Shown here: in pieces, positions 154 to 59,359 of the stretch
Layout of the letters: each line of letters opens with the position of its first letter
Position numbering within the stretch: the stretch's first letter is position 1
NCBI RefSeq assembly: GCF_014349155.1
Contig: NZ_JACSIT010000100.1
Location: 62,001-126,000 of the forward strand
Direction of reading: 5' to 3'
Length of the DNA: 64,000 bases
Origin: Neolewinella lacunae
GTDB lineage: Bacteria > Bacteroidota > Bacteroidia > Chitinophagales > Saprospiraceae
The notes under the pieces: model-generated
Databases searched by the model: none
Seen by the model: the letters and a program-made list of their open reading frames with translations, nothing else
Told to the model about the DNA's origin: nothing
Program-made: the position numbers and the translations under genes

Positions 154-171
154 GGGCGCGTCCGCAGGTGC
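154..171 (-). repeat. Dispersed motif copy 1 (spacer GAC)
   Basis: Read on the minus strand the half-sites GCACCTGCG and GCGCCC are intact and the three bases between them are GAC. It is preceded by CCTT. It faces away from copy 2, 60 bp to the right. Confidence 0.85.
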
Positions 172-231
172 AAGGAAAGGGATGAAGGAGCCAGGTCCGG
201 GGCCGTCCTCCGCTCCCCAAAGACTTGCCCG

Positions 232-250
232 GCACCTGCGGCCGCGCCCC
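232..250 (+). repeat. Dispersed motif copy 2 (spacer GCC)
   Basis: Exact consensus GCACCTGCGGCCGCGCCCC, 21 bp beyond the stop codon of the minus-strand glycosyltransferase and pointing into that gene against its direction. Confidence 0.9.
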
Positions 251-271
251 TTACACCACCAGTTCCCTGCA

Positions 272-1735
272 TCAGGGCAGCTCGTAGACGTACCACCAGC
301 GCATACCGTCCAGCCAGCCGCCAAAATTGAACGGCTCCGCCCAGGCGGGGCGGGTACTGAAAACGAGTTTGGCCCCGGGCGGTGGGTTGGGACTGCGCGT
401 TTGCTCCGAATAGAGGCAGGTGGCCGTCGGGCACTCGCCCGGCCACTCCGCACGGTCCTGGTTGACAATGGTCACGCCCTGCGGACGCCGGTAAAAGTCG
501 ATGAGCAGATTGGAATACGTGTAAATGTGCTTGCCATCCGCCAGCAGCGTAAGCGGTTCGTTGTAATGGTAGTACACGTAGCGCTGGGCCAAGACCTCCA
601 CAATCATCGGCCGAACGGCCACGGAGGCCAGCAAAAGCAGATTGAGGACCCACAAAAAAGTAGTCGCATGCCGCCGCCAGGATCGTTGGAAAGCAGCCTC
701 CCCCCAGCGGGCGTGGAGGTCGCGTGCCAGCGCCACGATGGCCACGGGCAGGAATGGCAGCATGGGGAAGAGAAAGCGGATGTCTTTGCGCGCCAGCAAA
801 CAGTGCACGACGAAGAAAACGACGAATGCCCAGGTGAGCGGGTCGCGGCGGTAGCGGTAGCAAAACCAGCCGATGGCGGCCAGGTACACCAGGCTCAGGG
901 GCGGCACCCCACGCTCGAAAATGGATTCAAAGTAGCCCCACCAGGGCTGGGTGCCGAAGGTGGCGGCTTTCCCTTCCACCAGGTTTACGCGCAGGTAATT
1001 CCAGGGAGCGTTGACCCATTCGCCGTACAGCCAGTAATCGGCTACGGTACCCAACGCTACCACCACCAAGCCACCCGCAACGGTGGCAAGCAACCGCCGG
1101 GGAGACTCCCGGCCTACGAAAATCAGCCAGGCCCCCAGGCCTACGCAGGCCAGCGCCATCTGGTAGCGCAGCACAAAACTGCACCCGAACAAGAGGCCCG
1201 CCGCAAATACCTTCCAGAGGCCCGCTGCTTCCGCAGGCCGGGGCGTCAGTGTATAGGCCCCCCGAATGGGCAGGGGATACAGGAGAAATCCAAAAGCGAA
1301 GGCCATTCCGCTCCAGTTTTCACTCGCAAAACGAATTCCACTGTATACATTGACCCAGCTGAAGAGCAGCAACAGGGCCAGCCAGCGCAGCCAACGGGCG
1401 TCAGCAAACGCAGGGGCGTAGTTCCGGTATACCCGCACGGCGAGGTACAAAAACAAGCCCGCCGAAAGCAAACGCAAGACCAGCGCCACCAGAAAAGGAT
1501 CCGCCAGGCCAACGGCACCCAGGGCACGCAAGACGACGAAAACCAGGAAAGGCTGGGTGCCGGGGCGCATCTGAGCAGCATATTCCCAGGCCAGGTTTTC
1601 GGCCGGTGTATTGCCCAGCCGGTAATTGGCAAATTCGAGCAGCTGGAAATGCTCGTCGCCCTGATGAAAACCTACGGAATTCCAGCAGGCAACGGCCAGC
1701 ACCGAGGCGGCAAGCAAAAGGTATTTTTTGGGCAT
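272..1735 (-). CDS. GT22-like integral membrane mannosyltransferase
   Basis: This 487-residue protein has about ten hydrophobic segments and an N-terminal segment ending in the loop HQGDEHFQLLEFA. That acidic loop matches the first luminal/periplasmic loop of GT22 (ALG9/PIG-B-type) transferases, which use polyprenyl-phosphate-linked mannose. A second family-like feature is SENWSG near residue 145. The substrate cannot be read from sequence; cell-surface glycan or lipid glycosylation is an inference. The ATG at 1735 is preferred over an in-frame GTG at 1765 because the hydrophobic segment begins directly after it. A good -7 box lies at 1803-1810. The gene is alone downstream of the SusC/SusD terminator, so it is probably transcribed separately. 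Confidence 0.75.
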   Translation of the reverse strand: MPKKYLLLAASVLAVACWNSVGFHQGDEHFQLLEFANYRLGNTPAENLAWEYAAQMRPGTQPFLVFVVLRALGAVGLADPFLVALVLRLLSAGLFLYLAVRVYRNYAPAFADARWLRWLALLLLFSWVNVYSGIRFASENWSGMAFAFGFLLYPLPIRGAYTLTPRPAEAAGLWKVFAAGLLFGCSFVLRYQMALACVGLGAWLIFVGRESPRRLLATVAGGLVVVALGTVADYWLYGEWVNAPWNYLRVNLVEGKAATFGTQPWWGYFESIFERGVPPLSLVYLAAIGWFCYRYRRDPLTWAFVVFFVVHCLLARKDIRFLFPMLPFLPVAIVALARDLHARWGEAAFQRSWRRHATTFLWVLNLLLLASVAVRPMIVEVLAQRYVYYHYNEPLTLLADGKHIYTYSNLLIDFYRRPQGVTIVNQDRAEWPGECPTATCLYSEQTRSPNPPPGAKLVFSTRPAWAEPFNFGGWLDGMRWWYVYELP

Positions 1736-1802
1736 GGGCGGGGAGGGCAGGAAGCGTGAACCCACCCGGCGGAGCAGGGTAGGCGGAGAAGAATCTTGAC
1801 TA

Positions 1803-1810
1803 CAAAGGTA
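1803..1810 (-). promoter_or_regulatory. Bacteroidota -7 box upstream of the GT22-like gene
   Basis: The minus strand reads TACCTTTG, an exact match to TAnnTTTG, about 70 bp upstream of the ATG at 1735. No convincing -33 TTTG was found at the usual spacing, so this is a partial promoter call. Confidence 0.5.
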
Positions 1811-1942
1811 AAAAGAGGATGCGCTTGGCGGTGCCCGGCCGTGCTTTGTTGCGGGAGGTCCGGTTCTCCCGCGCGGTCTTCGTGGACAATTGCCCTTTTT
1901 TTAGCGCAGTTTTACGGCATTGGCCGGGAAGTGGGGGTAAGT

Positions 1943-1978: not shown

Positions 1979-2025
1979 CAGGGTTGGCGCAGCGATAGCC
2001 GCTGGCCGTTCGGGTTCACCCGCCC

Positions 2026-6953: not shown

Positions 6954-9812
6954 CTACCGCCCCCTCAACCGCAGCACCATACTGAACAACAAGCCCAGCA
7001 GCATAGAGATGGACCCCAACCAAAAAAGGTTAATGCCCGGAAACTCAATGGCCTGCAACGCCAGCCAGTCGGAGCGGCTGGAATTGGTCGCCACCGCGAT
7101 GGGGACGGCCAGGCTGCTACGGGGTGGAGCCTGGGCCACGAGTAAGGTCGCTTCGCTGGTCTCCGGGTTGAGGTTGACCAGGTTGGCAAAAAGCCCCAGT
7201 TCCCGGTGTTCATCGCGCACGCGGCTGGGGGTTTTGTCGCGGATGATGAAAACGGGTTCAAGCGTACCCGTGGCACCGTCGTCGGTGGCCACTTCCAGGA
7301 TGGCACTGACGGAAATGTCGTCGGGCTGGGGTTCGTAGTGATCGACGTCGGGCTGGGGCTGGAAGTTGCGGAAGGTGATGGTCTTATCACCGATGCGGAA
7401 GTCGCTGCCGGGCTTGACCACAAACTCCTGGTAATCCAGGTCGTCTTCGGGGGTGAGGAGCTGGCTGAACACGCTTTCGTCGATCTTGATCCGCGTCGAT
7501 ATGTCGTTGAGCTGGGCGGGGTAGTGGTAGAGCAGCCCTTCGCGCAGGACGATGGCCACCTGGGCATCGTATTCGGGAGTACCCTCCCCGCCGCGGCTGA
7601 TGCGGACACGGGCGCTCACGCCAATGTCGTCGGGCTCGGCCACGTAGTCGGGGTGGCGGGGTACGCGGGAGAATTCCTCGAGCGCAAGGGCGAAGTTGCG
7701 GATCTGGAAGGTGTCGGGGTCGCGGATCTTGACGGTGTCCTTAAAGGCCGTGCTTTCGCCCACCCGCAGTGCGTGGATGCGGTAGGCGAGGCTATCCTCC
7801 TTGGCCTGTTTTTCGGTGATGCTCTGCTCTTCTTTGGGCAGGCTCATGATGACGGTGAAGATGTCTTTATCCCAGTAGCGCTTGGTGCTGGGGTTGGTGA
7901 TGGCGATCTTCTCGTAAGTTTTGTCGTAGATGACGTTGGGGTGGAGCTCGAATTCATTGACGACGTTGCGCTCGGCGTCGAACTGCCGGTAGTCTACCGT
8001 GTAGGTGCGGTTGTAGCCGTCGATCGTGTCGCCCCGCAGCGTGAGTTCGTAGTTTTCCATCACCAGGGGCTCGTCTTTGATGAGGATGACGGTGGTGCGC
8101 ACGAGTTGCTCGTCGTCGCTGAGCCCCTCCATCAAAAACTGGTTTTGGGAGATGATCCGCTTATTGGCGCCGCTGGCCAGGATGCCCACCAGCATGATGC
8201 CGAAGCCGATGTGGCTCAGGGAACTGGCAAACACTTTGGCGTCCCGCCTGGAGAAGCGGATCAGGTAGTCCACATTGCTCCAAACGGCAAACCAACCGGC
8301 AAAAAGCATCAGCTTGAACTGCCAGGGACCGGCTTTGATCCACAACAAAGTCAGCAGCGAAAGGCACACTGCACCTGCGACCGCGCCCAAAGTATGGTAA
8401 ACAAAGGGCTTCCAATTGTTCGCAAAATCTTTCTCCCGCCAGCGCAAAAAGTGGGCGATGCCGGAGAGAATGCCAATGAAAATGCCGATCCAGATCTGGA
8501 AACGGTTGTGGTGGTCTTCGGGGTCCGTCAGCGTTACCCCGTCAAAAAGCGGATTGAAGTATTCCCGGATCGCGTTGTAGACCGGAATGCTGGTGGAACC
8601 GGTGATGAGGACGGCCGACATGAGCAGGGTAAGACTGCCGATGAACATCCAGAACTCCCGGCTGCTCACACTTTCTTCCTGCTCCGGCGCAGGGATGGAG
8701 CGCCAGCGCCAAACGAGCAGGCCGACGCTCAACGCGGCGTAAAAGCCGAGGAAAAAGAGCAACTGGGCCTCCAGGCCCATTTCGGTGAAGGCGTGCACCG
8801 AAGTGTCCCCCAAAATTCCCGAACGCGTCAGGAAAGTGCTGTAAATGATGAGGACAAAGGTGAAGAGGTAGAACAGGTAAGTGGCCCGGATGCCCTGGCC
8901 CGTCGCCCGGCTGATCAGGTTGGTGTGCAGGCCCGCCACGAGCATGAGCCAGGGGACGAGGCTGGTGTTCTCCACCGGGTCCCAGGCCCAGTAGCCCCCG
9001 AAGTTGAGCGCCTCGTAGGCCCAGGCGGCCCCCATCAGGATGCCGATGCCTAGGATGCCAGCGCTGAAGAGGCTCCACCGCAGTGCGGGCTTGAGCCAAT
9101 CCTGGTGCCGGCCCGTCCACAGCCCCGCCACCGCAAAGGCGAAGGGAACCACCGTGCTGGCAAAACCCAGGAAAAGGGTAGGGGGGTGAATCGTCATCCA
9201 GTAATTCTGGAGGCTGGGGTTGAGGCCGCTGCCCTTCAGCAGTTCAACGTAGTCCGCCTGCTGAAAAATCGGGGCCTGGATCGTCTCCCGCAGCAACAGC
9301 AGGGGGTTGGAGCCAAACTTCAGCACCCAATCCCCAAAACCAAAGTGCACCCCCAGCAACATGCTGGCAATGACCACCTGCACCGAGCCGAGCACCGCCA
9401 TTACCGGCCGCTCCCAGCTGCGGGCCGTCACCATCAGGACGTAGCCCAGGATGACGTGCCAGAACATCCACAACAAAAAACTTCCTTCCTGCCCCTCCCA
9501 AAAAGCGCTGAAAATGTAGCGCTGCTGGAGGTCGCCACTCACGTGCGCGCTCACGTAATTGTACTCGTAGTACTGGTTGAGCATCGCGAAGAAGATCGTC
9601 CCGATGACGGTAAAAACCGCCGCGCCGTGGGCCAAAAAGCTCAGTTGCCCCAGGCGGGCCCAGCGGCCGCCCCGGAGTTTTTCCTCGCGGTACTGCGTAG
9701 CCAGAAAATAGCTGATCGTACTGAGCAGCCCCGCGAAAAAGGCGAGCAAAACGGCAAAGTGCCCGACGTAGCGGGGGCCGAGGTGTTCACCGATGTATTG
9801 TATTGGTTCCAA
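6954..9812 (-). CDS. ccmF: Cytochrome c haem lyase, CcmF/CcsA type
   Basis: This large membrane protein (952 residues) carries the CcmF-type segment FWEGQEGSFLLW (about 104-115) and the haem-handling WWD signature WAWDPVENTSL (275-285). A TIHPPTLFLGF helix lies near 207. A soluble domain of several hundred residues follows, and a last helix lies near the C terminus. The family transfers haem to apocytochrome CXXCH motifs in the periplasm. It lies 49 bp downstream of the CcmE-type gene in the same direction, so the two likely work together. The only plausible start is TTG at 9812. The N-terminal EPIQYIGEHLGPRYVGHF matches where relatives begin, and no ATG precedes it. Confidence 0.88.
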   Translation of the reverse strand: MEPIQYIGEHLGPRYVGHFAVLLAFFAGLLSTISYFLATQYREEKLRGGRWARLGQLSFLAHGAAVFTVIGTIFFAMLNQYYEYNYVSAHVSGDLQQRYIFSAFWEGQEGSFLLWMFWHVILGYVLMVTARSWERPVMAVLGSVQVVIASMLLGVHFGFGDWVLKFGSNPLLLLRETIQAPIFQQADYVELLKGSGLNPSLQNYWMTIHPPTLFLGFASTVVPFAFAVAGLWTGRHQDWLKPALRWSLFSAGILGIGILMGAAWAYEALNFGGYWAWDPVENTSLVPWLMLVAGLHTNLISRATGQGIRATYLFYLFTFVLIIYSTFLTRSGILGDTSVHAFTEMGLEAQLLFFLGFYAALSVGLLVWRWRSIPAPEQEESVSSREFWMFIGSLTLLMSAVLITGSTSIPVYNAIREYFNPLFDGVTLTDPEDHHNRFQIWIGIFIGILSGIAHFLRWREKDFANNWKPFVYHTLGAVAGAVCLSLLTLLWIKAGPWQFKLMLFAGWFAVWSNVDYLIRFSRRDAKVFASSLSHIGFGIMLVGILASGANKRIISQNQFLMEGLSDDEQLVRTTVILIKDEPLVMENYELTLRGDTIDGYNRTYTVDYRQFDAERNVVNEFELHPNVIYDKTYEKIAITNPSTKRYWDKDIFTVIMSLPKEEQSITEKQAKEDSLAYRIHALRVGESTAFKDTVKIRDPDTFQIRNFALALEEFSRVPRHPDYVAEPDDIGVSARVRISRGGEGTPEYDAQVAIVLREGLLYHYPAQLNDISTRIKIDESVFSQLLTPEDDLDYQEFVVKPGSDFRIGDKTITFRNFQPQPDVDHYEPQPDDISVSAILEVATDDGATGTLEPVFIIRDKTPSRVRDEHRELGLFANLVNLNPETSEATLLVAQAPPRSSLAVPIAVATNSSRSDWLALQAIEFPGINLFWLGSISMLLGLLFSMVLRLRGR

Positions 9813-10294: not shown

Positions 10295-10313
10295 GGGGCG
10301 CGGCCGCAGGTGC
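10295..10313 (-). repeat. Dispersed motif copy 3 (spacer GCC)
   Basis: Exact consensus on the minus strand, preceded by CTTT and ending 38 bp before the ccmE start codon, in the same direction as ccmE. Confidence 0.9.
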
Positions 10314-20348: not shown

Positions 20349-21468
20349 GCCAACGACTTCTTCTCGGGCGGCGGAGCCCCTGCGCGTGATTGTGAGCGGT
20401 GGGGGCACGGGGGGGCACATCTTCCCTGCCATCGCCATTGCGGACGAGCTCAGGCGGCTGCGCCCGGACACCGAGTTCCTGTTCGTAGGGGCGAAGGGCA
20501 AAATGGAAATGGAAAAAGTGCCGAAGGCGGGATACACTATTGAAGGCCTCTGGATTTCCGGCCTCCAGCGGAAACTGACGCTGGGCAACCTGAGCTTCCC
20601 GTTCAAGGTCATCAGCAGCCTCTGGGCATCGCGGAGCATCCTTAAGCGCTTCCGGCCGCACGTGGTGATTGGCACGGGGGGCTACGCGGGCGGGCCGGTT
20701 TTGTACGCGGCGGCGAAACTGGGCATCCCTACGCTCATTCAGGAGCCCAATGCTTTTGCGGGCCTGGCGAATAAGTGGCTGGGGCGGCAGGTGGATAAAA
20801 TCTGCGTGGCCTTTCCTGGTATGGACCAATTTTTCCCCGCCGCCAAGCTGGTGGAAACGGGCAACCCCGTGCGGGAGGCCATGCTCGAACTGGCGGCGCA
20901 GCCCGGTGCAGAGGCAGCACCCACCGTCCTCCTGATGGGCGGCAGTGGGGGCGCCAAAAGCCTGAATGAGGCGATGCGCGGTGCGGCGGATTTGATCGGG
21001 GCGCGGCCGCAGGTGCAGTGGAAGTGGCAATGTGGCAGTGTTTATTACGAAGACTTCCGGCAGTGTGCTACCGCGCAGCTGCCCAATGTGACGATCTCCG
21101 CCTTCATTGACGATATGGCAGGGGCCTACCGGTCGGCCACCGTCGTAATCGGGCGGGCGGGCTCCACGACCATCGCCGAGATCCAGTACCTCGGCAAGCC
21201 GACCATCCTGGTGCCCAGCCCCTGGGTGGCCGAAGACCACCAGACGATGAATGCCCGGGCCCTGACCGCCCGCGACGCTGCCGTGCTGGTGCCCGACGCT
21301 GCCGTCAGCGCAGACCTGATTCCCACGGTCTTTGCTTTGCTCGACGACCCTGCGCGGCTGGCCGAACTGGGCCGTAACGCCCGCGCTATGGCCCGGCCCG
21401 GTGCGGTGAGTCGCATTGCCGAAGAAGCCCTCCAACTCATTTCTTCCACCCCAAAAATGGCCCACTGA
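20338..21468 (+). CDS. murG: Lipid II synthase MurG
   Basis: This 376-residue GT28 transferase adds GlcNAc to lipid I on the inner membrane face. It has the glycine-rich start VIVSGGGTGGHIFPA, the segment GTGGYAGGPVLYAA, the UDP-GlcNAc-binding loop VIGRAGSTTIAE, and PWVAEDHQTMNA. The ATG at 20338 overlaps ftsW by 11 bp and gives the usual length. Codons 221-226 (GARPQV) are encoded exactly by a dispersed-motif copy on the opposite strand. They fall in the variable linker before WQCG. Confidence 0.96.
   Translation: MQPKPTTSSRAAEPLRVIVSGGGTGGHIFPAIAIADELRRLRPDTEFLFVGAKGKMEMEKVPKAGYTIEGLWISGLQRKLTLGNLSFPFKVISSLWASRSILKRFRPHVVIGTGGYAGGPVLYAAAKLGIPTLIQEPNAFAGLANKWLGRQVDKICVAFPGMDQFFPAAKLVETGNPVREAMLELAAQPGAEAAPTVLLMGGSGGAKSLNEAMRGAADLIGARPQVQWKWQCGSVYYEDFRQCATAQLPNVTISAFIDDMAGAYRSATVVIGRAGSTTIAEIQYLGKPTILVPSPWVAEDHQTMNARALTARDAAVLVPDAAVSADLIPTVFALLDDPARLAELGRNARAMARPGAVSRIAEEALQLISSTPKMAH
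20998..21016 (-). repeat. Dispersed motif copy 4 inside murG
   Basis: A perfect 19-bp consensus lies in frame inside murG and points against the gene. It is the only perfect copy well inside a coding region; copies 6, 7 and 12 touch the ends of other genes. Confidence 0.9.
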
Positions 21469-25203: not shown

Positions 25204-25221
25204 GCACCTGCGGGCGCGCCC
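25204..25221 (+). repeat. Dispersed motif copy 5 (spacer GGC)
   Basis: Half-sites intact with GGC between them. It lies between ftsA and ftsZ, 142 bp before the ftsZ ATG, in the same direction as ftsZ. Confidence 0.8.
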
Positions 25222-29068: not shown

Positions 29069-31504
29069 CTACCGCACCCCCATCTCCACCACCAGATAAC
29101 TCCCCTTAAAATCCTGGTTGCGGACCTCAATCACCGCCCGGCCCGTTCCCGGTACCAATTCAATGGCGGCCCGCCCGTTGGCCATTTCAATGACCTGACT
29201 GCGGGTGGGGGTACCGTAGTCTACCAGCAATTTCCCGCTGCCGTCGAGGCTGAAGTAAACGTGGTCTTCGTAGTCCAGCACGCGGCGTCCGGCGGCGTCC
29301 TGCATCGTCGCTTCAATGAGGAGGTGGCCATTCGGCAGCGTACGCTGGGTCAGGACGATTTCCTCCGGGCTGCCCGCTTTCTCGTAGGCATAGGTCAGGG
29401 CCAGGGTGTCTGCCGCAACCAGTTGGCCCCCCTCGTAGCCCAGGCTGATGAGTTGATTAGCCCCTGCGGCGAAGTTCAGTTCCCAGGTAAGTCCCTGGGC
29501 AGGATACACTCCCCGCCGGCGTTGTTTGCGGCCCATGGACACTCCGTTGAGCCACAGCTCCACCTCCGCGCAGTTGCTGAATACGGCCTGCTCCCGCGTT
29601 TTGCCCACCGGCCCGCTCCGTTCCGTCCAGGTATGCGATTCGAGGTAGGTGAAGGGTTCTCCCGACCAGTAGCTTTTAAAAACGTAGTAGGCATCTTTGG
29701 GCTTGCCGGCCCGGTCCACCAGCCCCTTCTGGTTGAGGTAGGGGATGGCGTTTTCGGGCCGTAGCGGGGTGCCGAAGTCCTTGAAGGCCCACTGGGCGTT
29801 GCCCGCAAACCAGTCCGTCGTCTCCGAAACGCTCAGGTGCCAGTCGAAGAGATCCACCACGTAATTTTCCGACCAATCGCCGGATTTGGCGACGTTGACG
29901 ACGTTGGCCTGGTTGATGTCTTCGGCCCATTCATCGGCCTTCACCGTTCCGTCGCCCGTAATGGGGGTCTCGGTGTGGCGGCCAATGTGGCTGGAGCCGC
30001 CATACTCCATGTGCAGGAACCGGGGGTAGAGATCGCGCTGCTTTTCCAGGGTAGGGCCGTAATTTTTGTAAACGCCGGCGTACCAACCCGACCAGATGGA
30101 GGGACTGAACACGTCCGGGATATCCGCGCCTTCGTAGTATTTACGCAGGGCAGTGAGCCGACCGGGATCGAGGGCGTGAGCCAGGTCGTTGAGTTCGCCC
30201 AGGAAGGCATTGAGCTGGGCGGGGTCGTCGCCGCCGGGGAAGTCGGGCAGCCAGTACAGTTCATTGCCCAGGGACCAGAAAAAGATGCTGGGGTGATTGA
30301 AGTTTTGGCGGATTTGTTCGGCCAGCAGCTGCTTCGTATTGGCCTCCCAGGTACTTCCTCCTTTGCCGCCGCGGCACCAGGGGAGCTCGTCCCAGACGAT
30401 GAGGCCCAGCGAATCGCAGGCGCGGTAAACGGCCGGATCCTGGGGGTAATGGCCCAGCCGCACGAAATTTACGCCCAGGTCTTTCATTTGCTGCACGTCG
30501 GCCAGGTGCAAACTATCGGGCATGGCCGCCCCGTAGCCCGCGTGTTCCTCGTGGCGGTGGGTGCCGCGCAGCAGCAGGCGCTCGCCATTCAGGTAAAAGG
30601 GGCCGTTGGGTTCGAAAGAAAACCAGCGGTAACCAACCCAGTCCCGGAGCTCGTCCATGGTAGCTTCGCCGTTGAGTAGCCGGACGCGGACGGCGTAGCG
30701 GTTGGGAGTGGCGGGAGACCACAGCCGGGGGTTGGCCAGGGGCGGTAGTTGGATTTCAGCACGGTTGGCTCCCGCAGGCAGGGGAATTTCCGCCCCGGCA
30801 ACGCGTTCGTTGCTGGTGGGATCGTAGAGTTCTGCGGCGAGGTGCTGACCGGGCGCAGCGGCCTGGCCCAGGTAGGCCACGATGCGGGTGGTGGCACTGC
30901 TGTTGCTTACGGCAGGGGTCGAGATTTCCAGCCGTTCCAGGTGTACGGCCGGGGTGGTTTGCAGCCAGACGTCGCGCGTTAATCCCCCATAGATGAAAAA
31001 GTCGGACTTCTGGGAAGGAATCAGGTCGGGATCGTAGCCATTGTCTACGCGCACTGCCAGTTGGTTCGCTCCGCTGGCCGCCAGGTGGGGCGTCAGGTCA
31101 ATGGTGAAACCCACGTAGCCGCCCACGTGACCGCCGATGCGCTGGCCGTTCAGGTACACCTCGGCCTTGGTGTTGGCCCCTTCAAAGTAAAGGGCGTAGC
31201 GTTGGCCGGGCACCGCCTTGATGGCCAGGGGGCGGAGGTACCAGCTGGCATCGCGGCGGTAGCCGGGGGTGTTGTCCACCGCATCCCACTGGTTCCAGGT
31301 GTGGGGCAGCGTGACGGGCGTTCCCACCGCAGGCAGCGCCGCCAGGTTGGGCGTACTGTGCTCGAAGTAAGTCCAGCCGTCGTTGATTTTGCGTTGCTCC
31401 CGAACCTGCGGAGGGGCAGTTTCGGGGGCAGATCGGGCGCTGACGCAGGTGCAAAGGAAGGCACTAAGGAGCAGAGAAAGAACGGGGAAGATTGCAACGC
31501 GCAT
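29069..31504 (-). CDS. Glycoside hydrolase family 2 protein (beta-galactosidase-like)
   Basis: This 811-residue secreted protein has the GH2 order: sugar-binding jelly-roll (TPVTLPHTWNQWD), immunoglobulin-like domain, TIM barrel and C-terminal beta domains. The general acid/base is Glu415 in FFWSLGNELYW and the nucleophile Glu500 in FLHMEYGGSS. The family cleaves terminal beta-galactosides, glucuronides or mannosides; the substrate here is undetermined. The ATG at 31504 opens a signal peptide. The peptide end (CTCVSA, residues 18-23) is encoded by a dispersed-motif copy, and neither Cys sits in an ideal lipobox. The hybrid sensor gene upstream on the same strand is the likely regulator. Confidence 0.9.
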   Translation of the reverse strand: MRVAIFPVLSLLLSAFLCTCVSARSAPETAPPQVREQRKINDGWTYFEHSTPNLAALPAVGTPVTLPHTWNQWDAVDNTPGYRRDASWYLRPLAIKAVPGQRYALYFEGANTKAEVYLNGQRIGGHVGGYVGFTIDLTPHLAASGANQLAVRVDNGYDPDLIPSQKSDFFIYGGLTRDVWLQTTPAVHLERLEISTPAVSNSSATTRIVAYLGQAAAPGQHLAAELYDPTSNERVAGAEIPLPAGANRAEIQLPPLANPRLWSPATPNRYAVRVRLLNGEATMDELRDWVGYRWFSFEPNGPFYLNGERLLLRGTHRHEEHAGYGAAMPDSLHLADVQQMKDLGVNFVRLGHYPQDPAVYRACDSLGLIVWDELPWCRGGKGGSTWEANTKQLLAEQIRQNFNHPSIFFWSLGNELYWLPDFPGGDDPAQLNAFLGELNDLAHALDPGRLTALRKYYEGADIPDVFSPSIWSGWYAGVYKNYGPTLEKQRDLYPRFLHMEYGGSSHIGRHTETPITGDGTVKADEWAEDINQANVVNVAKSGDWSENYVVDLFDWHLSVSETTDWFAGNAQWAFKDFGTPLRPENAIPYLNQKGLVDRAGKPKDAYYVFKSYWSGEPFTYLESHTWTERSGPVGKTREQAVFSNCAEVELWLNGVSMGRKQRRRGVYPAQGLTWELNFAAGANQLISLGYEGGQLVAADTLALTYAYEKAGSPEEIVLTQRTLPNGHLLIEATMQDAAGRRVLDYEDHVYFSLDGSGKLLVDYGTPTRSQVIEMANGRAAIELVPGTGRAVIEVRNQDFKGSYLVVEMGVR
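31435..31452 (-). repeat. Dispersed motif copy 6 (spacer TCA) in the GH2 signal peptide
   Basis: Half-sites intact with TCA between them, preceded by TTT. It is inside the first 24 codons of the GH2 gene and has the same direction as the gene. Confidence 0.8.
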
Positions 31505-31670: not shown

Positions 31671-34600
31671 TTAGCGGTCCCCTGCACCTGCGTCCGCGCC
31701 CGCTTTTACCTGCTCGCGGTAGTCCGTGGGGGCGGTGCCGAAGGTGCTGCGAAAGCATTTGGTGAAATAGCGCGTGTCTTTAAACCCGACGCGGGTGGCC
31801 ACTTCATTGACGTTCAGATCGCCGTCGCGCAGCAGCTGGGCGGCGCGCTTCATGCGAATCAGTTTGATGAAATTATTTGGCGTATGGCCGCTGATTTCCT
31901 TGAGCCGCGCAAAAAGCAGGGCGCGGGAGACGGCCAGGTCGCGCGCAAAGCGGTCGACTTTGTAGCCCGGCCGGGCAATGTTGGCCTCCGCCACGGCGAG
32001 GGCCTTTTCCAAAAACACCTCGTCGGCCGAGGCGATGTTGAGTACCGTCGGCTCCAGGCGGAGGGCCCGGGTAATTTTCTCCCGGGAGGTGCGCGCGCTG
32101 GCCAGGGTATTGCGGATGCGCAGTTTGAGCTCGCGCGGACTGAAGGGCTTAGTCAGATAATCGTCGGCCCCCTTGGCCAATCCTTCGAGCTTGAAGTCGT
32201 CCGCCGAGCGGGCCGTAAGCAGCAGGACCGGCAGATGGCTCGTCCGGGGGTCGCTCTTCAGTGCGGTACAAAGCTCCAGGCCGTCCATTTCGGGCATCAT
32301 TACGTCGGATACCACCAGGTCGGGAGGGTTTTTGACGGCCAGCTCCAGCGCCGCCCGGCCATTGGGTGCGGTGAGCACCCGGTATTCTTCGCGGAGTTCG
32401 GAGACGAGGTAAGCCAAGACTTCACGGTTGTCTTCCACCACCAGAATGCGCAATTTTTCCTGGCCATTGACCGCCGGAGCAAGCGCTGCGGGGGACGGGG
32501 GAAGCGGCGCTGGTGTTGGAGGGGAGGAAGTTCCCGTGCCCACTGCGGCCCCGCGCAAAGGCAGGGTGAAGGCAAAGGTGCTGCCCGCGCCCGGCGCACT
32601 ATCCACCCAGATGTTGCCCTGGTGGAGCTCCACGAGTTGCCGGCAAATGGCCAGCCCGATGCCCGTACCCGTATGGCGGGCGTTGGTCTCCCGCTCAAAG
32701 AAGCGGAGGAAGATTTGTTCCTGAATTTCCCGGGGAATGCCGGGGCCGTCGTCGCTCACCTTAATCTCCGCTTCGCTGCCGTTGCGGCGGATTTCCAGGT
32801 CGACGCGCCCATTTTCGCCGACGGCTTTGAAGGCATTGGCCAGGAGATTGAAGAGGATTTTTTCCAGTTTATCAGCGTCAAAAGGCACGAACAGCGTAGG
32901 CTCCGCCACCAGGAAGCGGTAGGTGATGTTGCCCGCGATGGCCTGCTCAGCAAAGGCGGCGTAGACCTCGCGGGCGGAGGCGATGAGGTCCAGGCGGCGC
33001 AGCTCCAGGGTATCGTGGCCGCTATCGAGCTTGCGGAAGGTCAGCAGCTGGTTGACGAGCTTGAGCAGGTGCCGGGTGTTGCGGGCCACGGATTGGAGGC
33101 GGCGCTGGGTCTCGGCCGAGCCTTCGCCCGAACTGGTGAGGTCTTCGAGGGGCCCGACGATGAGGGTCAGCGGTGTGCGGATCTCGTGGGCAATGTTGGT
33201 AAAAAAGCGCAGTTTGGTTTGGTGGAGTTCTTCCTGCTGGGCCTTGGCCATCCTTTCCAGTTTCAGGCGGTTGCGCAGGTGGTAGTAGCGCGTGACGGAG
33301 AAGAGCAGCAGCGCGGCCAACAGGGCGTATACCAGGTAGGCCCAGCCCGTCCGCCAGGGTGGGGGAAGCACCCGGATGAGCAACTCCCGCGCCTGGTGGT
33401 TCCAGACGCCGTCGCCGTTGGCGGCCTTGACGTAAAAGCGGTACTCGCCCGGACTTTGGATGGTGTAGCTCGCCTCGGTATTGCCGCGTTGCTGTACCCA
33501 TTCCCGGTCGAGCCCTTCCAGGCGGTAGGCGTAGAGGTTCTTGCTGGGGTTGAGGTAATCCAGGGCGGCAAAAGCGATGCTGAAATTGGCCTCGTTGTAG
33601 GGGAAGACCAGAGTGCTTACCCCGTCGAGCGGGCCGCTCAGCAATCCGTCGTCTGCCCCGGGAATTACGGGCTGGCCAAATTGCTTGAGGCCGGTAAAGA
33701 CCACCTCCGGCGGCTCGGGGTTGCTCCGGATGGCATCGGGGTGGAAGAGGGTAAAGCCCTCCAGCCCCCCGAAGAGGAGCTCGCCCCGCCGCGTTTTTCC
33801 TGCGGCGTTGAAGTTGAATTCCTGGTTCTCCAGGCCGTCCAGGTGGTCGTAGGTCTGGAAGGTATTGTCCTGGCGGTTGAGGCGGGCCAGGCCGAGGTTG
33901 GTGCTGCACCAGAGCTGGCCGCTGTCGTCTTCCACGATGGCCAGGATGGTGTTGCCGGGGATGCCCTCGGCGCGGCTGTAGTGGGCCTGCAATTCGCCGT
34001 CGTTGTTGAGGGCGTAGAGCCCTTCGGAGTAGGTGCCTACCCAGATGAGTCCGTCGTAAGACTCGGCGATGCAGTAGATGCGCTGCTGGGGGAAGAAGTG
34101 GCGGAAGGCTTCCGTCCCCGTATCGCTCAGGAGGTCAAGCCCGCGGTCGGTGGCTACCCAGAGCTGCCCCCGGCGGTCGAGCAGCATCGCGCGGCAGTTG
34201 TCGGACGCCAGCGAGCTTTCCCGGTCGGCGCGGTGGCGGATCGCGGGGAGGGCCTTGCCTCCCGGCCCGATCCGGTCGATGCCGCCGCCGTGGGTGGCTA
34301 CCCACATGGTATCGTGGTGGCGGACGACGTCGTAGACATTATCGTTCGTCAGGCCTCGGCTCCCTTGCCGGTAGCTGGCCGTAATCTCCAGGGTATTAAG
34401 GTCTAAGCGACTCAGGCCGTGCTGGTAGGCCCCGACCCAGATGGCGTTGCCGTCTAACAACAGGGTTTTCAGGTTATCGCCCAAGGCACCGTTTTTGGGG
34501 ATGATCTTCTGGATGCGGCCGTCCTGGCGATTGAAGTAGTTGAGTCCGCCGCCTTCGGTACCGATCCAGATGCCGCCGTCGGGGTCTTCGAGGAAGGCGC

Positions 34601-35795: not shown

Positions 35796-35814
35796 GGGGC
35801 GCGGCCGCAGGTGC
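35796..35814 (-). repeat. Dispersed motif copy 8 (spacer GCC)
   Basis: Exact consensus preceded by CCTT, about 127 bp before the HTCS start codon and in the same direction as the gene. Confidence 0.9.
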
Positions 35815-38783: not shown

Positions 38784-38801
38784 GCACCTGCGGCCGCGCC
38801 C
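38784..38801 (+). repeat. Dispersed motif copy 9 (spacer GCC)
   Basis: Consensus copy preceded by CCTT, 29 bp after the Rieske stop codon and 97 bp before the SDR start, in the direction of both. Confidence 0.9.
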
Positions 38802-41573: not shown

Positions 41574-42212
41574 GGGGTAATGAGTGAATGCGTGAATGAG
41601 CGAATGCGTGAATGGGCTGCCGCACGGGATAGGCGAGACAATGAATGGGTTAATGAGCGAATGCGTGAATGAGTGAATAAGCTGCCGCACGGGATAAGCG
41701 AGATAGGCTACCATTGGCTATCTCGGCATTAATCGGCAATAATTTTCATTTATCGAACGCCAAGGCAGCGGTGTTGAGGTAATTAGTGAATAGTCTCTGG
41801 TCGCAGGAGATGCGATAGCATATCCCGTGCGGTAGCGTATCCCGTGCGGTAGCGTATCCCGTGCGGTAGCGTATCCCGTGCGGTAGCGTATCCCGTGCGG
41901 TAGCATATCCCGTGCGGCAGAGTATCCCGTGCAGCAGCGTATCCCGTGCGGCAGCATGTCTCGTGCGGCAGCATGTCTCGTGCGGCAGCGTATCTCGTGC
42001 GGTAGCATATCCCGCGCGGCAGCATATCCCGTGCGGCAGCATGTCGCTTGCGGTAGCGTATCTCGTGCGGTAGCATATCCCGCGCGGCAGCATATCCCGT
42101 GCGGCAGCATGTCGCTTGCGGTAGCATGTCGCTCGCGGTAGCCCATTCACTCATTCACTCATTCACGCATTCACTCATTGACCGCATTAGCTAGCGCTGC
42201 TGCCTACGGCGG
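41574..42212. repeat. Composite repeat element 2 between the YecM-like gene and glpD
   Basis: This has the same architecture as element 1 but is longer. The left arm has 8-bp units and single 17-bp units twice. The core has CAATAATTTTC, GGCAGCGGT and CTCTGGTC in the same order. The right arm is an expanded 17-bp array (41818-42140), then 8-bp units in reverse orientation. It ends with a stretch also found in element 3 (CGCTGCTGCCTACGGCGGTC, shared with one mismatch plus a one-base gap). It directly abuts the glpD stop codon. Confidence 0.85.
41818..42140. repeat. 17-bp tandem array, 19 units
   Basis: Nineteen successive units of GCRTRTCYCGTGCGGYA fit exactly into 323 bp. Units 11-14 (41988-42055) are repeated base for base as units 15-18 (42056-42123), a 68-bp higher-order duplication. 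The first five units are almost identical. Because 17 is not a multiple of 3 and the unit has no stop, all three minus-strand frames stay open across it. Confidence 0.92.
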
Positions 42213-43955: not shown

Positions 43956-43974
43956 GGGGCGCGGCCGCAGGTGC
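43956..43974 (-). repeat. Dispersed motif copy 10 (spacer GCC)
   Basis: Exact consensus 94 bp before the glpD start codon, in the direction of glpD. The adjoining 43975-44040 is very rich in C and G runs (CCCCC/GGGGG), typical of short Bacteroidota intergenic repeats. Confidence 0.88.
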
Positions 43975-46851: not shown

Positions 46852-46869
46852 GCACCTGCGTCAGCGCCC
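46852..46869 (+). repeat. Dispersed motif copy 11 (spacer TCA)
   Basis: Half-sites intact with TCA between them. It lies 10 bp after the barrel gene stop and 50 bp before the MbnP start, in their direction. Confidence 0.8.
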
Positions 46870-50437: not shown

Positions 50438-51832
50438 TCAGGGGCAATCGAGGTAGATGCGGGCGGCGTTGGCCATTGCCTCTGTCCTCACTTTGCACCT
50501 GCGTTGAGCGCCCAAAACCTGATCATGTTCCATCCGGGCCCGGATGTTCCCGTTGGTGAGCACGTCGTAAAGTAACACGTATTTCCCGGTCGGGGGTTGG
50601 TCCTGGAGGTCCTGTACCGTCGGCGTTGTGCTTTGCGGGGCCCCCGAAACGGGGTGGATGCGGCGGTAATAATCAAAGGCGGGTTCCGAACTGTAATGCA
50701 ACAGCGGGCGGTAGCCGGGGTCGAAGGTCGTGACCAACCAGCGGGCGTCGGAGAAGGAAAGGGGCGAAGTGTAGTGGCGCGACACATTGGAGCCTCCGAG
50801 GACGATCAGCCAGCCCAACAGCAGTCCGTAGCGCGCCAAACTCGGGATCTTTTGCTCCGCAAAAACCCGCTGGCTACTGATGGCGGCCAGCCACCACCAG
50901 CCGGGCAGGGTGAAGAGCAGCAGCCGGGTAATAAGGCTGTACTGCCCCTGGGTGGAGGCGGCCAGCACCAGCAGCACGGGCCAGAACAACAGCGCCGCTG
51001 CGGTGGGGCGTAACGCCAGGCCCGCCAGCGCCAGCGCGGTCCCCACACCAATGCTCCAGGCCGTGAAGCCAAAGGCCAGTTTGGGCAGTTCCACCAGCAG
51101 CCAGAGCGCTCGCAGCCAGTCGAAACCCGCCGTGCCGGGCAGTGGGAAAAAGTATTGCTCGTGGTAGTTGGCCAGTTGGACGTCGTTGACGGAAGGGCGC
51201 AGCAGCACCAGGTACAAGACCACAAAACTCAGCAGCCAAAGGCCCGAAACCAGCAGCCAGCCCAGTCGGCCTTCCTTGGCGAACAGGCGGGTGCCCCCCA
51301 CGGCCGCCAAAACGAAGGCGGCGGGCAAGGACCACCACACGGCCACCGCCCCGGCCACCACCCAAAGCCAGTGGGGCCGTGGGTAGCGCAATCCGCCGGC
51401 CAGCAACAGCGCCGCAATGCCCAGGTCCAGAGCGTAGGGTTTTACCTCCCCCACGTAGCGCAAAACGGTGGGATTGACGAAGAGCAGGGCCAACACGAGC
51501 AGCGTCCAATCCCCCAGCCGCAGCGTCCGGCTGCCCAGCACCAAGCCCACAATGCCCAGCACCCCGCCCAGCAAAGCAGGCAGGCGGAGGGACCGCTCGC
51601 CGTAACCGAAGAGCTCGCCGCAGGCTTTGGCCAGCACGAGGTACAGCGGCGGCGCGTACTGGGCGTGGTCCAGGGGCGTGAAGAGCTCGCCGAAGGAGCG
51701 ATCGTAGAGGTTGCGCACCAGATTGGCCTCATCGATGAACAGCGGCCGGCCCGCCCACCAGTTGATCAGCCAAAGGGCCAGCCCCGCTAGGAGCAACAGC
51801 GCGTAGGCGAGATTGCGGTAGGTTTGGTCCAT
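50438..51832 (-). CDS. GT39/ArnT-like polyprenyl-sugar transferase
   Basis: This 464-residue protein with about eleven membrane helices starts with a helix followed by PLFIDEANLVRNLYDRSFGELF. That first-loop Asp-Glu pair is typical of GT39/ArnT/PMT transferases that use lipid-linked sugars. Later AQYAPPLYLVLAKACGELFG is also family-like. The C-terminal soluble tail contains VLGAQRRCKVR, which is encoded by dispersed-motif copy 12. Donor and acceptor are unknown. The TACATTTG box four bases before the ATG implies an almost leaderless message. Confidence 0.8.
   Translation of the reverse strand: MDQTYRNLAYALLLLAGLALWLINWWAGRPLFIDEANLVRNLYDRSFGELFTPLDHAQYAPPLYLVLAKACGELFGYGERSLRLPALLGGVLGIVGLVLGSRTLRLGDWTLLVLALLFVNPTVLRYVGEVKPYALDLGIAALLLAGGLRYPRPHWLWVVAGAVAVWWSLPAAFVLAAVGGTRLFAKEGRLGWLLVSGLWLLSFVVLYLVLLRPSVNDVQLANYHEQYFFPLPGTAGFDWLRALWLLVELPKLAFGFTAWSIGVGTALALAGLALRPTAAALLFWPVLLVLAASTQGQYSLITRLLLFTLPGWWWLAAISSQRVFAEQKIPSLARYGLLLGWLIVLGGSNVSRHYTSPLSFSDARWLVTTFDPGYRPLLHYSSEPAFDYYRRIHPVSGAPQSTTPTVQDLQDQPPTGKYVLLYDVLTNGNIRARMEHDQVLGAQRRCKVRTEAMANAARIYLDCP
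50495..50513 (+). repeat. Dispersed motif copy 12 (spacer TTGA)
   Basis: The only copy with four bases between the half-sites. It lies inside the last 30 codons of the GT39-like gene and points into the gene against its transcription. It is preceded by CTTT. Confidence 0.75.
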
Positions 51833-52341: not shown

Positions 52342-52635
52342 GGTATTGTCGCGGCTTTAGCCCGACCTAGGGACTTTAGCTCGTGGAGCTGACCTCTGGT
52401 CGGTAGGTGGTCTGGCTGAAGCCGCGACAATACCTGAGGCGACCTCTGGTCGGTAGCTGGTCGGGCTGAAGCCGCGACAATACCTGGGGCGGCCTTTGGG
52501 CAGTAAGTGGTCGGGCTGAAGCCGCGACAATACCTGGGGCGGCCTTTGGGCAGTAGGTGGTCGGGCTGAAGCCGCGACAATACCTGGGGCGGCCTTTGGG
52601 CAGTAGGTGGTCGGGCTGAAGCCGCGACAATACCT
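52342..52635. repeat. 50-bp tandem array with an inverted leading half-copy
   Basis: Five units begin every 50 bp (phase points 52401, 52451, 52501, 52551 and 52601). All share GCTGAAGCCGCGACAATACC, and the last three are almost identical. A reverse-complement copy of that segment at 52342-52367 could pair with the first unit. The minus strand is open in all three frames. At its right end the last unit runs into dispersed-motif copy 13 through the shared bases CTGGGGCG. Confidence 0.92.
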
Positions 52636-52654
52636 GGGGCGCGGCCGCAGGTGC
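52636..52654 (-). repeat. Dispersed motif copy 13 (spacer GCC)
   Basis: Exact consensus joined without a break to the end of the 50-bp array. It faces left, toward the tRNA and the GT39-like gene. Confidence 0.88.
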
Positions 52655-52695: not shown

Positions 52696-52734
52696 AACTA
52701 CTGAACTACTGAACTACTGAACTACTGAACTACC
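52696..52734. repeat. 8-bp microsatellite AACTACTG
   Basis: Four perfect units of AACTACTG and a partial fifth. It lies about 60 bp beyond the stop of the propeller lipoprotein gene (minus strand). Confidence 0.85.
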
Positions 52735-56976: not shown

Positions 56977-57010
56977 ACCGCCCCAACATCGCATTTTAAT
57001 CCTCAACCCC

Positions 57011-57028
57011 GCACCTGCGGCCGCGCCC
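57011..57028 (+). repeat. Dispersed motif copy 14 (spacer GCC)
   Basis: Consensus copy between two convergent genes, pointing into the oligopeptidase gene. It is one arm of a perfect inverted pair with copy 15. Confidence 0.9.
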
Positions 57029-57044
57029 AAAATCCCATAATTCT

Positions 57045-57061
57045 GGCGCGGCCGCAGGTGC
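57045..57061 (-). repeat. Dispersed motif copy 15 (spacer GCC)
   Basis: Reverse-orientation copy 16 bp after copy 14. The two can form a 17-bp stem with a 16-base loop, placed where a two-way terminator would be expected. Confidence 0.9.
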
Positions 57062-57098
57062 ACGGGCGAGTAGGCAAAGCGCAAAGGACGCCTACGCC

Positions 57099-59270
57099 CT
57101 AGCCCTCCACGCCATATTTCACCGGCGAATTGGTGTTGTAAAAGAAGAAACTCCAGATGTCGGCCTGCTCCTCGATGGTCTTCGAGATGGGCTTGCCCGC
57201 GCCGTGGCCCGCGTCAACGGCGACGCGGATCAAGACGGGCTTTTCGCCCGCGTGCGCCTCCTGCAGCCGCGCCGCAAACTTGAAGGAGTGGGCCGGCACC
57301 ACCCGGTCGTCGTGGTCGGCCGTAGTCACCATCGTGGCGGGGTAGGCGGTGCCGTCTTTGAGGTTGTGCAGCGGCGAATAGGCCCGCAGGATGGGGAACA
57401 TCTCGGGGTCAGCACTGCTGCCATACTCGGGGATCCAGCCCTTGCCAACGGTAAATTCGTGGTAGCGCAGCATATCCATTACGCCCACGGCGGGAAAGGC
57501 GACGGCGAACAAGTCCGGGCGCTGCGTCATGGCCGCACCCACCAGCAAGCCCCCGTTGGAGCCCCCGGCAATGGCCAGTTTTTCCTTGCTCGTGTAGCCT
57601 TTTTCAATGAGCCACTCGCCAGCCGCAATGAAGTCGTCGAACACGTTTTGCTTGTTTTTCAGCATGCCCGCCTGGTGCCATTCCTCGCCGTATTCGCCGC
57701 CACCCCGGAGGTTGGCCATGGCAAACACCGCACCATTTTCCAGCATGGGGATGCGGAAAGCCGAAAAGCCCGGGCTCATATTGATGTTGAATCCGCCGTA
57801 CCCGTAGAGGTAAGTCGGGTTGGTGCCGTCCAGCTTGAGGCCTTTTTTGTGGACCAAAAACATCGTCACCGGCGTCCCGTCTTTGCTGGTGTAGGTGATC
57901 TGGCTTTCTTCGAAGTCGGCGGGCGTAAATTTCAGGTCGGGGGCAAAGAAGGGGCGGCTTTCGCCCGTTTCCACGTCGTATTCAAAGATGGTGGCCGGGT
58001 AAGTGAAGCTGGTGAAGGTGTAGTAGAGTTTTTTCTCTTCCTCCCGGCCGCTGAAGCCCCCGGCGCTGCCCAATCCCGGCAGTTCGATGGCTTTGCGGTT
58101 GCTGCCGTCGTAGTTCATCTGGTAGTAGCGGTCGGTGGCTTTTTCCAGGTAATTGGCGAAGAAATAGCCGCCGCCGGTATTGACACCCTGCAGGAGGTTG
58201 TCCCCCTCGGGCAAAATTTCCGTCCAGTTTTCTTCCGCCGGCTGGTCAATGTTGATCTTCACCAGGCGGTACCTGGGCGCGCCTACGTCGGTGTGGACGT
58301 AGAAGTCTTTGCCGATGGTGTGGACGAGGCTGCTCTTCTGGGTCGTTTCGGGGAAGAGGGCGATGGGCTTTTTCCCGACCGGAATGGTCTTGCCATCGAG
58401 GGGCAGGTAGTACATGGCAAAGCCATCGGTGCCGGGGGCGGCGTAGAGCACGAAGTAGTCTTCCTCCTCCGTGGTGCCTCCGTAGTGGTAGTAGCTGGGG
58501 TTGCCTTTGTCTTCGTAGATCAGTACGTCCTTGCTCTGCGGGTCGCCGAGTTTATGGTAGTAGACGCTGTGCATGGTGTTATTGCCCTTCAGGGCTTCGC
58601 CGGGAGCCGGGGCGGGGTAGCGGCTGTAGAAAAAGCCGTCTTTGTACCAGCCGGCACCGCCAAATTTGATCCACTCCAGTTCGTCGGGCAGGTCGGTATT
58701 GGTCTGCAGGTCGCGCACGTAGATCTTGTTCCAGTCAGAGCCCGCTTCGCTGCGGCTGTAGGCCATGTAGCGCTTGCTCTTATCCGCGCCCAGCAGGCCG
58801 ATGCTGGTAGTGCCTTCAGCGTTGAGGGTGTTGGGGTCAATCAAGACTTTCTCTTCGCCGTTTTCGCCTTCTTTGTAGTAGTAGACGGACTGGTTCTGGA
58901 GGCCATCGTTTTTGCTCCAGATGTAGTAGTTGCCAACTTTGCTGGGCGCGCCCACGCGGGGGTAGTTGACCAGTTCGGTGAGGCGGTCGGCGATGGCTTT
59001 GCGGAAAGGGATCTGGTCCAGGTAGCCGAAAGTAGTTTTGTTTTGCTCCGTCACCCAGGCTTTGGTGGCCTCGGCGTTGTCGTCTTCCAGCCAGCGGAAG
59101 GCATCGGGTACTTCCGTGCCGTGGTAGGTGTCTACGTGGTCTACCTTTTCAGTGCTGGGGTAGGTAACGGGAATCGGGGGGTAGGCAGTAGCTTTGGTCA
59201 TTTCTTCTTTTGGTGTGTCGGCGCAAGCAGCGAGCAGCAAAAGTAGGGCCAGGGGGAAAAAGTTTTTCAT
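57099..59270 (-). CDS. Prolyl oligopeptidase family serine peptidase (S9A)
   Basis: This 723-residue lipoprotein (LLLLAAC, Cys16) has the N-terminal propeller segment VDTYHGTEVPDAFRWLED and LVNYPRVGAP. The alpha/beta-hydrolase domain begins near 480 with YLYGYGGFNINMSPGFS. Nucleophile Ser571 lies in AGGSNGGLLVGA, the Asp in TADHDDRVVP (near 653) and the His in DAGHGAGK (near 690). It would cut proline-containing peptides in the periplasm. The ATG at 59270 opens the signal peptide; the open frame upstream is a motif copy and is not coding. A -7-like TAAATTCG lies at 59297-59304. Confidence 0.93.
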   Translation of the reverse strand: MKNFFPLALLLLLAACADTPKEEMTKATAYPPIPVTYPSTEKVDHVDTYHGTEVPDAFRWLEDDNAEATKAWVTEQNKTTFGYLDQIPFRKAIADRLTELVNYPRVGAPSKVGNYYIWSKNDGLQNQSVYYYKEGENGEEKVLIDPNTLNAEGTTSIGLLGADKSKRYMAYSRSEAGSDWNKIYVRDLQTNTDLPDELEWIKFGGAGWYKDGFFYSRYPAPAPGEALKGNNTMHSVYYHKLGDPQSKDVLIYEDKGNPSYYHYGGTTEEEDYFVLYAAPGTDGFAMYYLPLDGKTIPVGKKPIALFPETTQKSSLVHTIGKDFYVHTDVGAPRYRLVKINIDQPAEENWTEILPEGDNLLQGVNTGGGYFFANYLEKATDRYYQMNYDGSNRKAIELPGLGSAGGFSGREEEKKLYYTFTSFTYPATIFEYDVETGESRPFFAPDLKFTPADFEESQITYTSKDGTPVTMFLVHKKGLKLDGTNPTYLYGYGGFNINMSPGFSAFRIPMLENGAVFAMANLRGGGEYGEEWHQAGMLKNKQNVFDDFIAAGEWLIEKGYTSKEKLAIAGGSNGGLLVGAAMTQRPDLFAVAFPAVGVMDMLRYHEFTVGKGWIPEYGSSADPEMFPILRAYSPLHNLKDGTAYPATMVTTADHDDRVVPAHSFKFAARLQEAHAGEKPVLIRVAVDAGHGAGKPISKTIEEQADIWSFFFYNTNSPVKYGVEG

Positions 59271-59340
59271 GCGGGGAGTGCAGGTTTTGATCCAGGCGAA
59301 TTTAGGGCCAGCCGGGCACATGCGGAGCCTGTTTATCTGC

Positions 59341-59359
59341 GGGGCGCGGCCGCAGGTGC
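59341..59359 (-). repeat. Dispersed motif copy 16 (spacer GCC)
   Basis: Exact consensus preceded by CCTT, 71 bp before the oligopeptidase ATG and in its direction. With copy 14 it brackets that gene. Confidence 0.9.

Follow-up and report, generated by a model that had tools for sequence, protein, structure and literature searches.

Sequence-specific uptake tags are known from the Neisseriaceae and the Pasteurellaceae, with pili doing the work, as the DNA uptake sequences (DUS) of the former and the uptake signal sequences (USS) of the latter, which also have semi-conserved flanking segments. Among other oriented sites, Chi sites have a replication-strand bias (75:25 for the 8-bp Chi of Escherichia coli), and polar sites like the FtsK-orienting polar sequences (KOPS) are skewed along the replichore. 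We know of no earlier uptake- or exchange-type sequence in the Bacteroidota. Here we analysed a window of 64,000 nucleotides from Neolewinella lacunae (Bacteroidota; RefSeq assembly GCF_014349155.1, contig NZ_JACSIT010000100.1, positions 62,001 to 126,000 of the forward strand), in which a two-part motif, GCACCTGCG-N2..5-GCGCCC, recurs in both orientations, and report that in this and related genomes copies on the same strand are strongly depleted within 3 kb of each other, with opposite orientations little affected.

For Haemophilus influenzae, the accessible part of PMC1939737 describes an uptake effect that is independent of orientation and position and cites Karlin's claim of even USS spacing; that of PMC2346458 calls the USS distribution apparently random, and in that of PMC7811141 USS pairs less than 100 bp apart gave no detectable rise in receptor binding. 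No same-strand exclusion is described in the accessible parts of these three papers or of the DUS dialect paper PMC3630211. A literature search, with subscription papers outside its reach, returned no report of a Lewinella uptake sequence and, by titles and the first lines of abstracts, none of a Bacteroidetes/Bacteroidota uptake sequence; among the 10 of 1,106 papers listed for competence in Saprospiraceae, none contains that family name, and the main text of an overrepresented-motif paper (PMC5217627) is likewise without Bacteroidetes, Saprospira or Lewinella. Within the Bacteroidota, Riemerella columbina favours its own DNA in transformation, and its candidate uptake words are A-rich, as stated in the accessible part of PMC7965970.

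A pattern search of both strands found 16 exact matches in the window, and 100 dinucleotide shuffles of the window gave none. The initial annotation had listed sixteen copies, fifteen of which are exact; its entry at 57045 is a 17th copy with one mismatch (at 57044, ending GCGCCA), an exact copy at 8371 had been overlooked, and several minus-strand starts were off by one, the spacers being as listed. The window belongs to contig C82 of the 5.8 Mb N. lacunae genome (5,815,296 bases), in which 1,141 exact copies occur (561 plus, 580 minus) and the reversed motif pattern has no match, so that the motif is indeed far commoner than expected. The supposition that the site has two parts and tolerates changes in its spacer was likewise borne out: among 117 copies over 456 kb (a tally that leaves out copies less than 60 bases from a stretch end), 108 have a 3-base spacer, five a 4-base and four a 5-base one, GCC being the commonest (64 copies), and the motif is flanked by pyrimidine-rich sequence on the left and A-rich sequence on the right. 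Over 856 kb of the genome, the pattern GCACCTGCG-N2..6-GCGCC, with the last C free, gives 192 copies; slightly wider patterns were used for counting gap coverage and for the congeners G002, G014 and G005.

The initial annotation had described copies of alternating direction. In the window, with the copy at 8371 counted, 12 of the 16 neighbouring pairs alternate (p = 0.08); over 856 kb, 140 of 185 do, which is beyond chance and reflects a rule sharper than the one first claimed. We measured it in some 2 Mb of sequence stretches, comprising 856 kb of N. lacunae, 661 kb of the congener G010, which carries a different motif, and 500 kb of G002, G014 and G005 (the extents of contigs C1 and C2 of G010 being given by the last listed position). 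The five genomes, which represent two dialects, together have 179 pairs closer than 3 kb, and no more than 19 of these share orientation. When orientations were permuted over fixed copy positions in 2,000 rounds, not one round reached the observed low in any of the three sets: 8 of 84 such pairs in N. lacunae (shuffles: mean 41, minimum 25), 8 of 59 in G010 (mean 29.1, minimum 17) and 3 of 36 in G002, G014 and G005 together (mean 17.7, minimum 8). A further congener, G013, shows a weaker exclusion in the same direction (3 same versus 11 opposite pairs below 3 kb; 29 of 2,000 shuffles as low). By the same shuffles, pairs 3-6 kb and 6-10 kb apart showed no clear orientation effect. Taken against a uniform expectation, the pooled ratio of observed to expected same-orientation pairs is 0.10 below 0.2 kb, 0.03 at 0.2-1 kb, 0.08 at 1-2 kb, 0.27 at 2-3 kb, 0.63 at 3-4 kb, 1.05 at 4-5 kb and 0.99 at 5-6 kb. 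The interpolated half-point of the exclusion lies at about 3-3.5 kb, and the exclusion lifts near 4 kb.

Mean spacing on one strand is 8.7 kb both in N. lacunae and in G010 despite their differing sequences, and the mean distance between neighbouring copies in the 856 kb of N. lacunae is 4.3 kb. The 856 kb also hold 40 one-mismatch copies (scaled Markov controls gave 0 and 4.7), which fill same-strand gaps, 20 of them lying more than 6 kb from the nearest perfect copy on their strand where 15% would be expected. Under the wider pattern (216 copies), neighbours are never more than 11.85 kb apart, and where 80 same-orientation pairs would be expected below 3 kb there are 10. Pairs in opposite orientation can be very close: over the 856 kb, eight pairs of neighbours, 4 of them convergent and 4 divergent, are less than 100 bp apart. 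Gene layout does not explain the exclusion, because for gene starts the same strand is in excess at 1-2 kb (240 versus 112). The exclusion might instead be a by-product of lethal deletions between direct repeats, with the motif serving some other role, as such deletions would remove direct and spare inverted repeats; we regard this as highly improbable, since the G010 pattern, with its mere 13 bp or so, gives a similar curve, and since we would expect a smooth fading with distance rather than near-complete exclusion up to 2 kb that lifts at 3-4 kb.

The motif is restricted to one genus among the 60 genomes searched. Exact copies occur in 20 of the 21 Neolewinella/Lewinella genomes, from 1 to 1,141 in each (514 in G018), and the 39 genomes outside the genus hold one exact copy in total. 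No comparable iterated 9-mer was found in 138 kb of G035 (same family) or 100 kb of G038 (same order), and a scan of IMG/VR with an extended pattern returned four single matches. The species poorest in the motif carry another spelling. In G010, an unbiased word count found TGCTACTTTG 47 times in 239 kb with 1 expected, and TGCTACTTTG-N1-2-AG occurs 1,272 times in that genome and 0-2 times in each of the other 20 of the genus. Similarly, ACCTGCGCTCCGCCGCC occurs 180 times in G001, never in N. lacunae and up to 17 times in some congeners; GCTCCCGCG-NNC-CCGCCC occurs 169 times in G004, 58 times in G017 and 0-3 times in the other genomes of the genus; and G013 uses GCACC[T/C]GCG with a spacer that often ends in A. 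There are thus at least four spellings within one genus. Those of G001 and G004 are visibly akin to the N. lacunae motif; that of G010 has 5 of 9 left-half bases in common with it and is little like the rest. Recognition as a hairpin (GCG..CGC around the spacer) was considered and rejected, as the G010 dialect GCTACTTTG-NN-AG has no such stem.

At corresponding positions, spelling may follow the species. The gap between ftsA and ftsZ, which could be read at 11 of 20 loci, holds an exact copy in G018, drifted copies in G005, G003, G007 and G013, and in G010 a copy in its own dialect; the gaps of G001 and G006 contain nothing similar to the motif. In one gene, G014 and G010 each have their own dialect a few bases apart. 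Comparable intergenic regions are scarce (1-5 per genome pair), and ftsA-ftsZ is the one candidate intergenic case of in-place dialect replacement.

Of the 186 copies that could be placed relative to genes in the 856 kb (6 of the 192 lie at stretch ends and were excluded; genes were taken from our own caller, not a published one), 118 are intergenic, though only 18% of this sequence is non-coding (82% coding). The coding copies suggest how new ones arise. Five genomes hold 119 intragenic copies, of which 25 had a usable best hit elsewhere, giving 100 comparisons; these rest on best tblastn hits (E 1e-8) rather than proven orthologues, some genes being represented from several genomes. The alignment is ungapped over the motif in 84 comparisons and gapped in 16, and 24 of the 25 copies are ungapped in at least one, which argues that coding copies are mostly substitutions in place and not insertions. 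The recombination or cassette border proposed in the initial annotation, if taken as one formed by insertion, finds no support in these alignments.

A Chi-like site is the main rival explanation for these properties. A strand-tracking helicase-nuclease that reads the site in one orientation and passes from degradation to recombination would mark self DNA within the cell, which would directly explain why redundancy is strand-specific. A density of one copy per about 8.7 kb of each strand is in line with this, and coevolution of enzyme and site could produce dialects. On the other hand, long contigs have no strand bias: the counts are 33/39 over 364 kb of C82 and 49/39 over the listed 362 kb of G010 C1, and both reject the 75:25 of E. 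coli Chi. The motif also has 13-18 bp with a tolerant spacer against the 8 bp of E. coli Chi, and its copies are mostly intergenic. We therefore consider a Chi-like role unlikely, albeit a serious contender.

The lack of strand polarity over long contigs likewise bears on a polar chromosome-organising site, a role that the initial annotation had also raised and in which evenly spaced oriented sites on the two strands would guide a translocase or nucleoid protein in packing or segregating the chromosome. Even coverage, with no gap above 11.85 kb among the 216 relaxed-pattern copies, and a spacing that depends on orientation would suit such a site. However, congeners spell the motif differently, which is unexpected for a core organiser, and it is found in one genus only among the 60 genomes searched, so that we judge this role improbable.

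On the basis of copy number, intergenic placement, ungapped coding copies, dialects and same-strand exclusion, we tentatively favour the reading that the motif serves species-specific self-recognition in the exchange of chromosomal DNA, akin to uptake sequences but read one strand at a time. The preference of R. columbina for its own DNA would be in line with this. DNA whose imported (or scanned) single strand bears a copy would be acquired preferentially, and copies would spread through this transfer bias. One copy per stretch of strand would suffice; a second on the same stretch would bring no gain and decay, and a copy on the opposite strand would travel separately and retain its advantage. 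The half-point of the exclusion at about 3-3.5 kb would then mirror the usual length of strand that is handled, and a change in the recognising protein could lead to a rewriting of the genomic set into a new dialect. Recognition of a double-stranded fragment would make both orientations redundant, and outward coverage in one direction predicts a depletion of convergent pairs equal to that of same-strand pairs; a one-strand process accounts better for the data than either. A process that reads or carries a single strand fits best, with a mild convergent depletion left over.

Several observations weigh against self-recognition of this kind. The two strands are not perfectly independent: between 0.2 and 3 kb, divergent pairs reach 1.18 times the expectation (80 versus 68) and convergent pairs, somewhat depleted, 0.75 times (51 versus 68), the latter being low in G010 at 1-3 kb (5 versus 17 expected), and divergent pairs swing from 3.87 times the expected number in the bin below 0.2 kb to 0.46 times in that of 3-4 kb. 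In G010, coding strand upstream of copies is unbalanced (0.422 on the same strand at 3 kb; 33 opposite versus 17 same at 1 kb). The presence of ComEC in all 21 genomes of the genus speaks for the uptake reading, but as ComEC is also found in 12 of 15 genomes searched outside it, it does not discriminate. None of the 21 genus genomes matches T2SSF, the platform family common to type IV pili and type II secretion systems; the known DUS/USS machinery is thus apparently missing, and import would have to be pilus-free. Finally, the reported orientation-independence of uptake in H. influenzae places strand exclusion outside the classical model.

It is possible, and we hold this more loosely still, that the motif represents a new class, a pilus-free uptake or exchange tag in which self-tags are counted per strand, forming two near-independent spaced series in at least four spellings, because a machine that handles single strands of a few kilobases would need one tag on each. 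If true, uptake tags would have arisen independently in a lineage that lacks the protein of the pilus platform, and several dialects within one genus would be a natural experiment on the joint change of receptor and tag. Same-strand exclusion would also yield, from the genome alone, a length of about 3-4 kb for a strand-specific process, and it can be sought wherever a complete genome carries DUS, USS or Chi sites.

Within the window, the copies are as follows (HTCS, hybrid two-component system; SDR, short-chain dehydrogenase/reductase).

154..171, minus strand: copy, spacer GAC
232..249, plus strand: copy, spacer GCC, forming a divergent pair with the copy at 154
8371..8388, plus strand: copy, spacer ACC, antisense within the minus-strand gene 6954-9812, missed by the initial annotation
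10296..10313, minus strand: copy, spacer GCC, 5' of ccmE
20999..21016, minus strand: copy, spacer GCC, antisense within the glycosyltransferase-28 (MurG-type) gene 20338-21468
25204..25221, plus strand: copy, spacer GGC, in the ftsA-ftsZ intergenic gap
31435..31452, minus strand: copy, spacer TCA, within the start of the GH2 gene
31684..31701, plus strand: copy, spacer TCC, antisense, within the 3' end of the HTCS gene
35797..35814, minus strand: copy, spacer GCC, at the 5' end of the HTCS gene
38784..38801, plus strand: copy, spacer GCC, 5' of the SDR gene
43957..43974, minus strand: copy, spacer GCC, with a G+C hairpin immediately upstream
46852..46869, plus strand: copy, spacer TCA, 5' of mbnP
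50495..50513, plus strand: copy, 4-base spacer TTGA, antisense, within the 3' end of the minus-strand gene 50438-51832
52637..52654, minus strand: copy, spacer GCC, bordering a tandem array of 50-bp units
57011..57028, plus strand: copy, spacer GCC, forming a convergent pair with 57044
57044..57061, minus strand: one-mismatch copy, ending GCGCCA
59342..59359, minus strand: copy, spacer GCC, 5' of the prolyl oligopeptidase gene

The gene names ccmE, ftsZ, GH2, HTCS, SDR, mbnP and oligopeptidase, assigned beforehand from the letters, are upheld by Pfam. Several relatives have a copy at the same codons as the one at 20999..21016; G010 and G001 do not. A further match, GCACCTGCG-CTCCG-GCGCC at 18541-18559 on the coding strand of gene 17866-19191, spells APALRRR and may reflect protein constraint instead of being a site, as this peptide is kept in several relatives.

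The initial annotation had also stated that copies point along gene polarity. This is true of the 5' copies of the tested genes in the window and does not extend genome-wide: over 856 kb, copies in the gaps between co-directional genes follow the direction of these genes in 36 cases and oppose it in 26 (p = 0.25), and intragenic copies lie on the same strand in 36 and on the opposite strand in 32 (p = 0.72). Coding strand within 3 kb on either side of N. lacunae copies is balanced (0.494 and 0.516 on the same strand). The first 120 bp of genes are biased (13 same, 3 opposite, p = 0.02); there the motif can be spelled as signal-peptide-like codons such as CTCVSA, and the copy at 31435..31452, translated by eye, reads ..CTCVSA in the signal-peptide-like GH2 start.

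A transcription-linked element (terminator, leader or promoter), as the initial annotation had ventured, would be in keeping with intergenic enrichment, with the eight convergent or divergent pairs below 100 bp, which could form hairpins, and with the modest association that G010 copies show with the coding strand upstream of them (33 opposite versus 17 same at 1 kb). In N. lacunae, however, there is no significant link to gene direction, and gene starts are opposite in pattern, with their same-strand excess at 1-2 kb (240 versus 112). A transcriptional role is thus hardly to be expected.

Repeats of other kinds, and transposase genes, occur in the window or elsewhere in the genus. A G+C hairpin, CCCCC-TT-GGGGG followed by a G run, stands directly upstream of many copies over the 856 kb, including the one at 43957, and 45 of 59 such hairpins have GCACCTGCG within the next 60 bases. 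Composite elements at 39606-39801 with 39979-40014, at 41579-41703 with 41811-42188 and at 60288-60531 combine 8-bp tandem repeats of the GAATGCGT type with nearby 17-bp and 68-bp arrays of the GCTACCGCACGGGATAT type, the 8-bp repeats being inverted on the far side. The copy at 52637 lies beside a 50-bp tandem array (52403-52641; 4.8 copies, 94% matches) and near an 8-bp array of AACTACTG (52696-52733). Matches to Y1 transposases resembling the REP-associated tyrosine transposases (RAYT; REP, repetitive extragenic palindromic) occur one to seven times per genome in 20 of the 21 genus genomes (for example L058 and L080-L108), many in open frames of about 170 or 220-250 amino acids. In the L148/L149 stretch of G010, almost the same sequence (GCGCCTGTGGCCGGGCC) returns every 240 bp, which is probably a tandem repeat.

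The motif could in principle be a repeat mobilised by such a transposase, as REP sequences and their paired forms (REPIN) are. The occurrence of Y1_Tnp genes in all but one of the 21 genomes, the existence of close inverted pairs and the 45 of 59 hairpins just upstream of the left half-site would be in line with this, as would the 10 of 31 RAYT loci that contain a copy of either dialect. The best point is locus L090 of G011, with copies on both sides at about 220-230 bp from the matched domain; in L097 of G010 a copy lies about 135 bp from it. Conversely, the two RAYT loci of N. lacunae (about 3.3 kb each) are both free of copies, 21 of the 31 loci have none, and G018, with its 514 exact copies, lacks a Y1_Tnp match in a fragmented assembly. 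Since coding copies mostly align without a gap and so do not look like insertions, and since insertion does not predict same-strand exclusion on the kilobase scale, we find mobilisation by RAYT very improbable.

Set against known systems, the motif shares features with several. Unlike KOPS-like sites, it shows no skew to one strand over about 360 kb in either genome (33/39 in N. lacunae, 49/39 in G010). Like REP and REPIN sequences, it has hundreds of intergenic copies, inverted pairs and RAYT genes in the genus, but there is no copy at the N. lacunae RAYT loci and coding copies are mostly substitutions. Chi sites are also read by orientation and spaced on the kilobase scale, whereas the N. 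lacunae motif is longer, bipartite and mostly intergenic, with no strand bias on long contigs. With the DUS of the Neisseriaceae it shares more than 1,000 copies per genome, species dialects, intergenic as well as coding copies and inverted pairs; it differs in its two parts with a 3-5 base spacer, in same-strand exclusion over 3-4 kb and in its occurrence within the Bacteroidota, in a genus without a match to the pilus platform, where a role in uptake is putative. The USS of the Pasteurellaceae resemble it in a core with semi-conserved flanks, a similar copy number and no overall strand bias. They are spaced at about 1 kb, according to the accessible part of PMC7811141, against a mean of 4.3 kb between N. 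lacunae neighbours, and they act independently of orientation, according to that of PMC1939737, whereas Neolewinella copies depend on each other's orientation.

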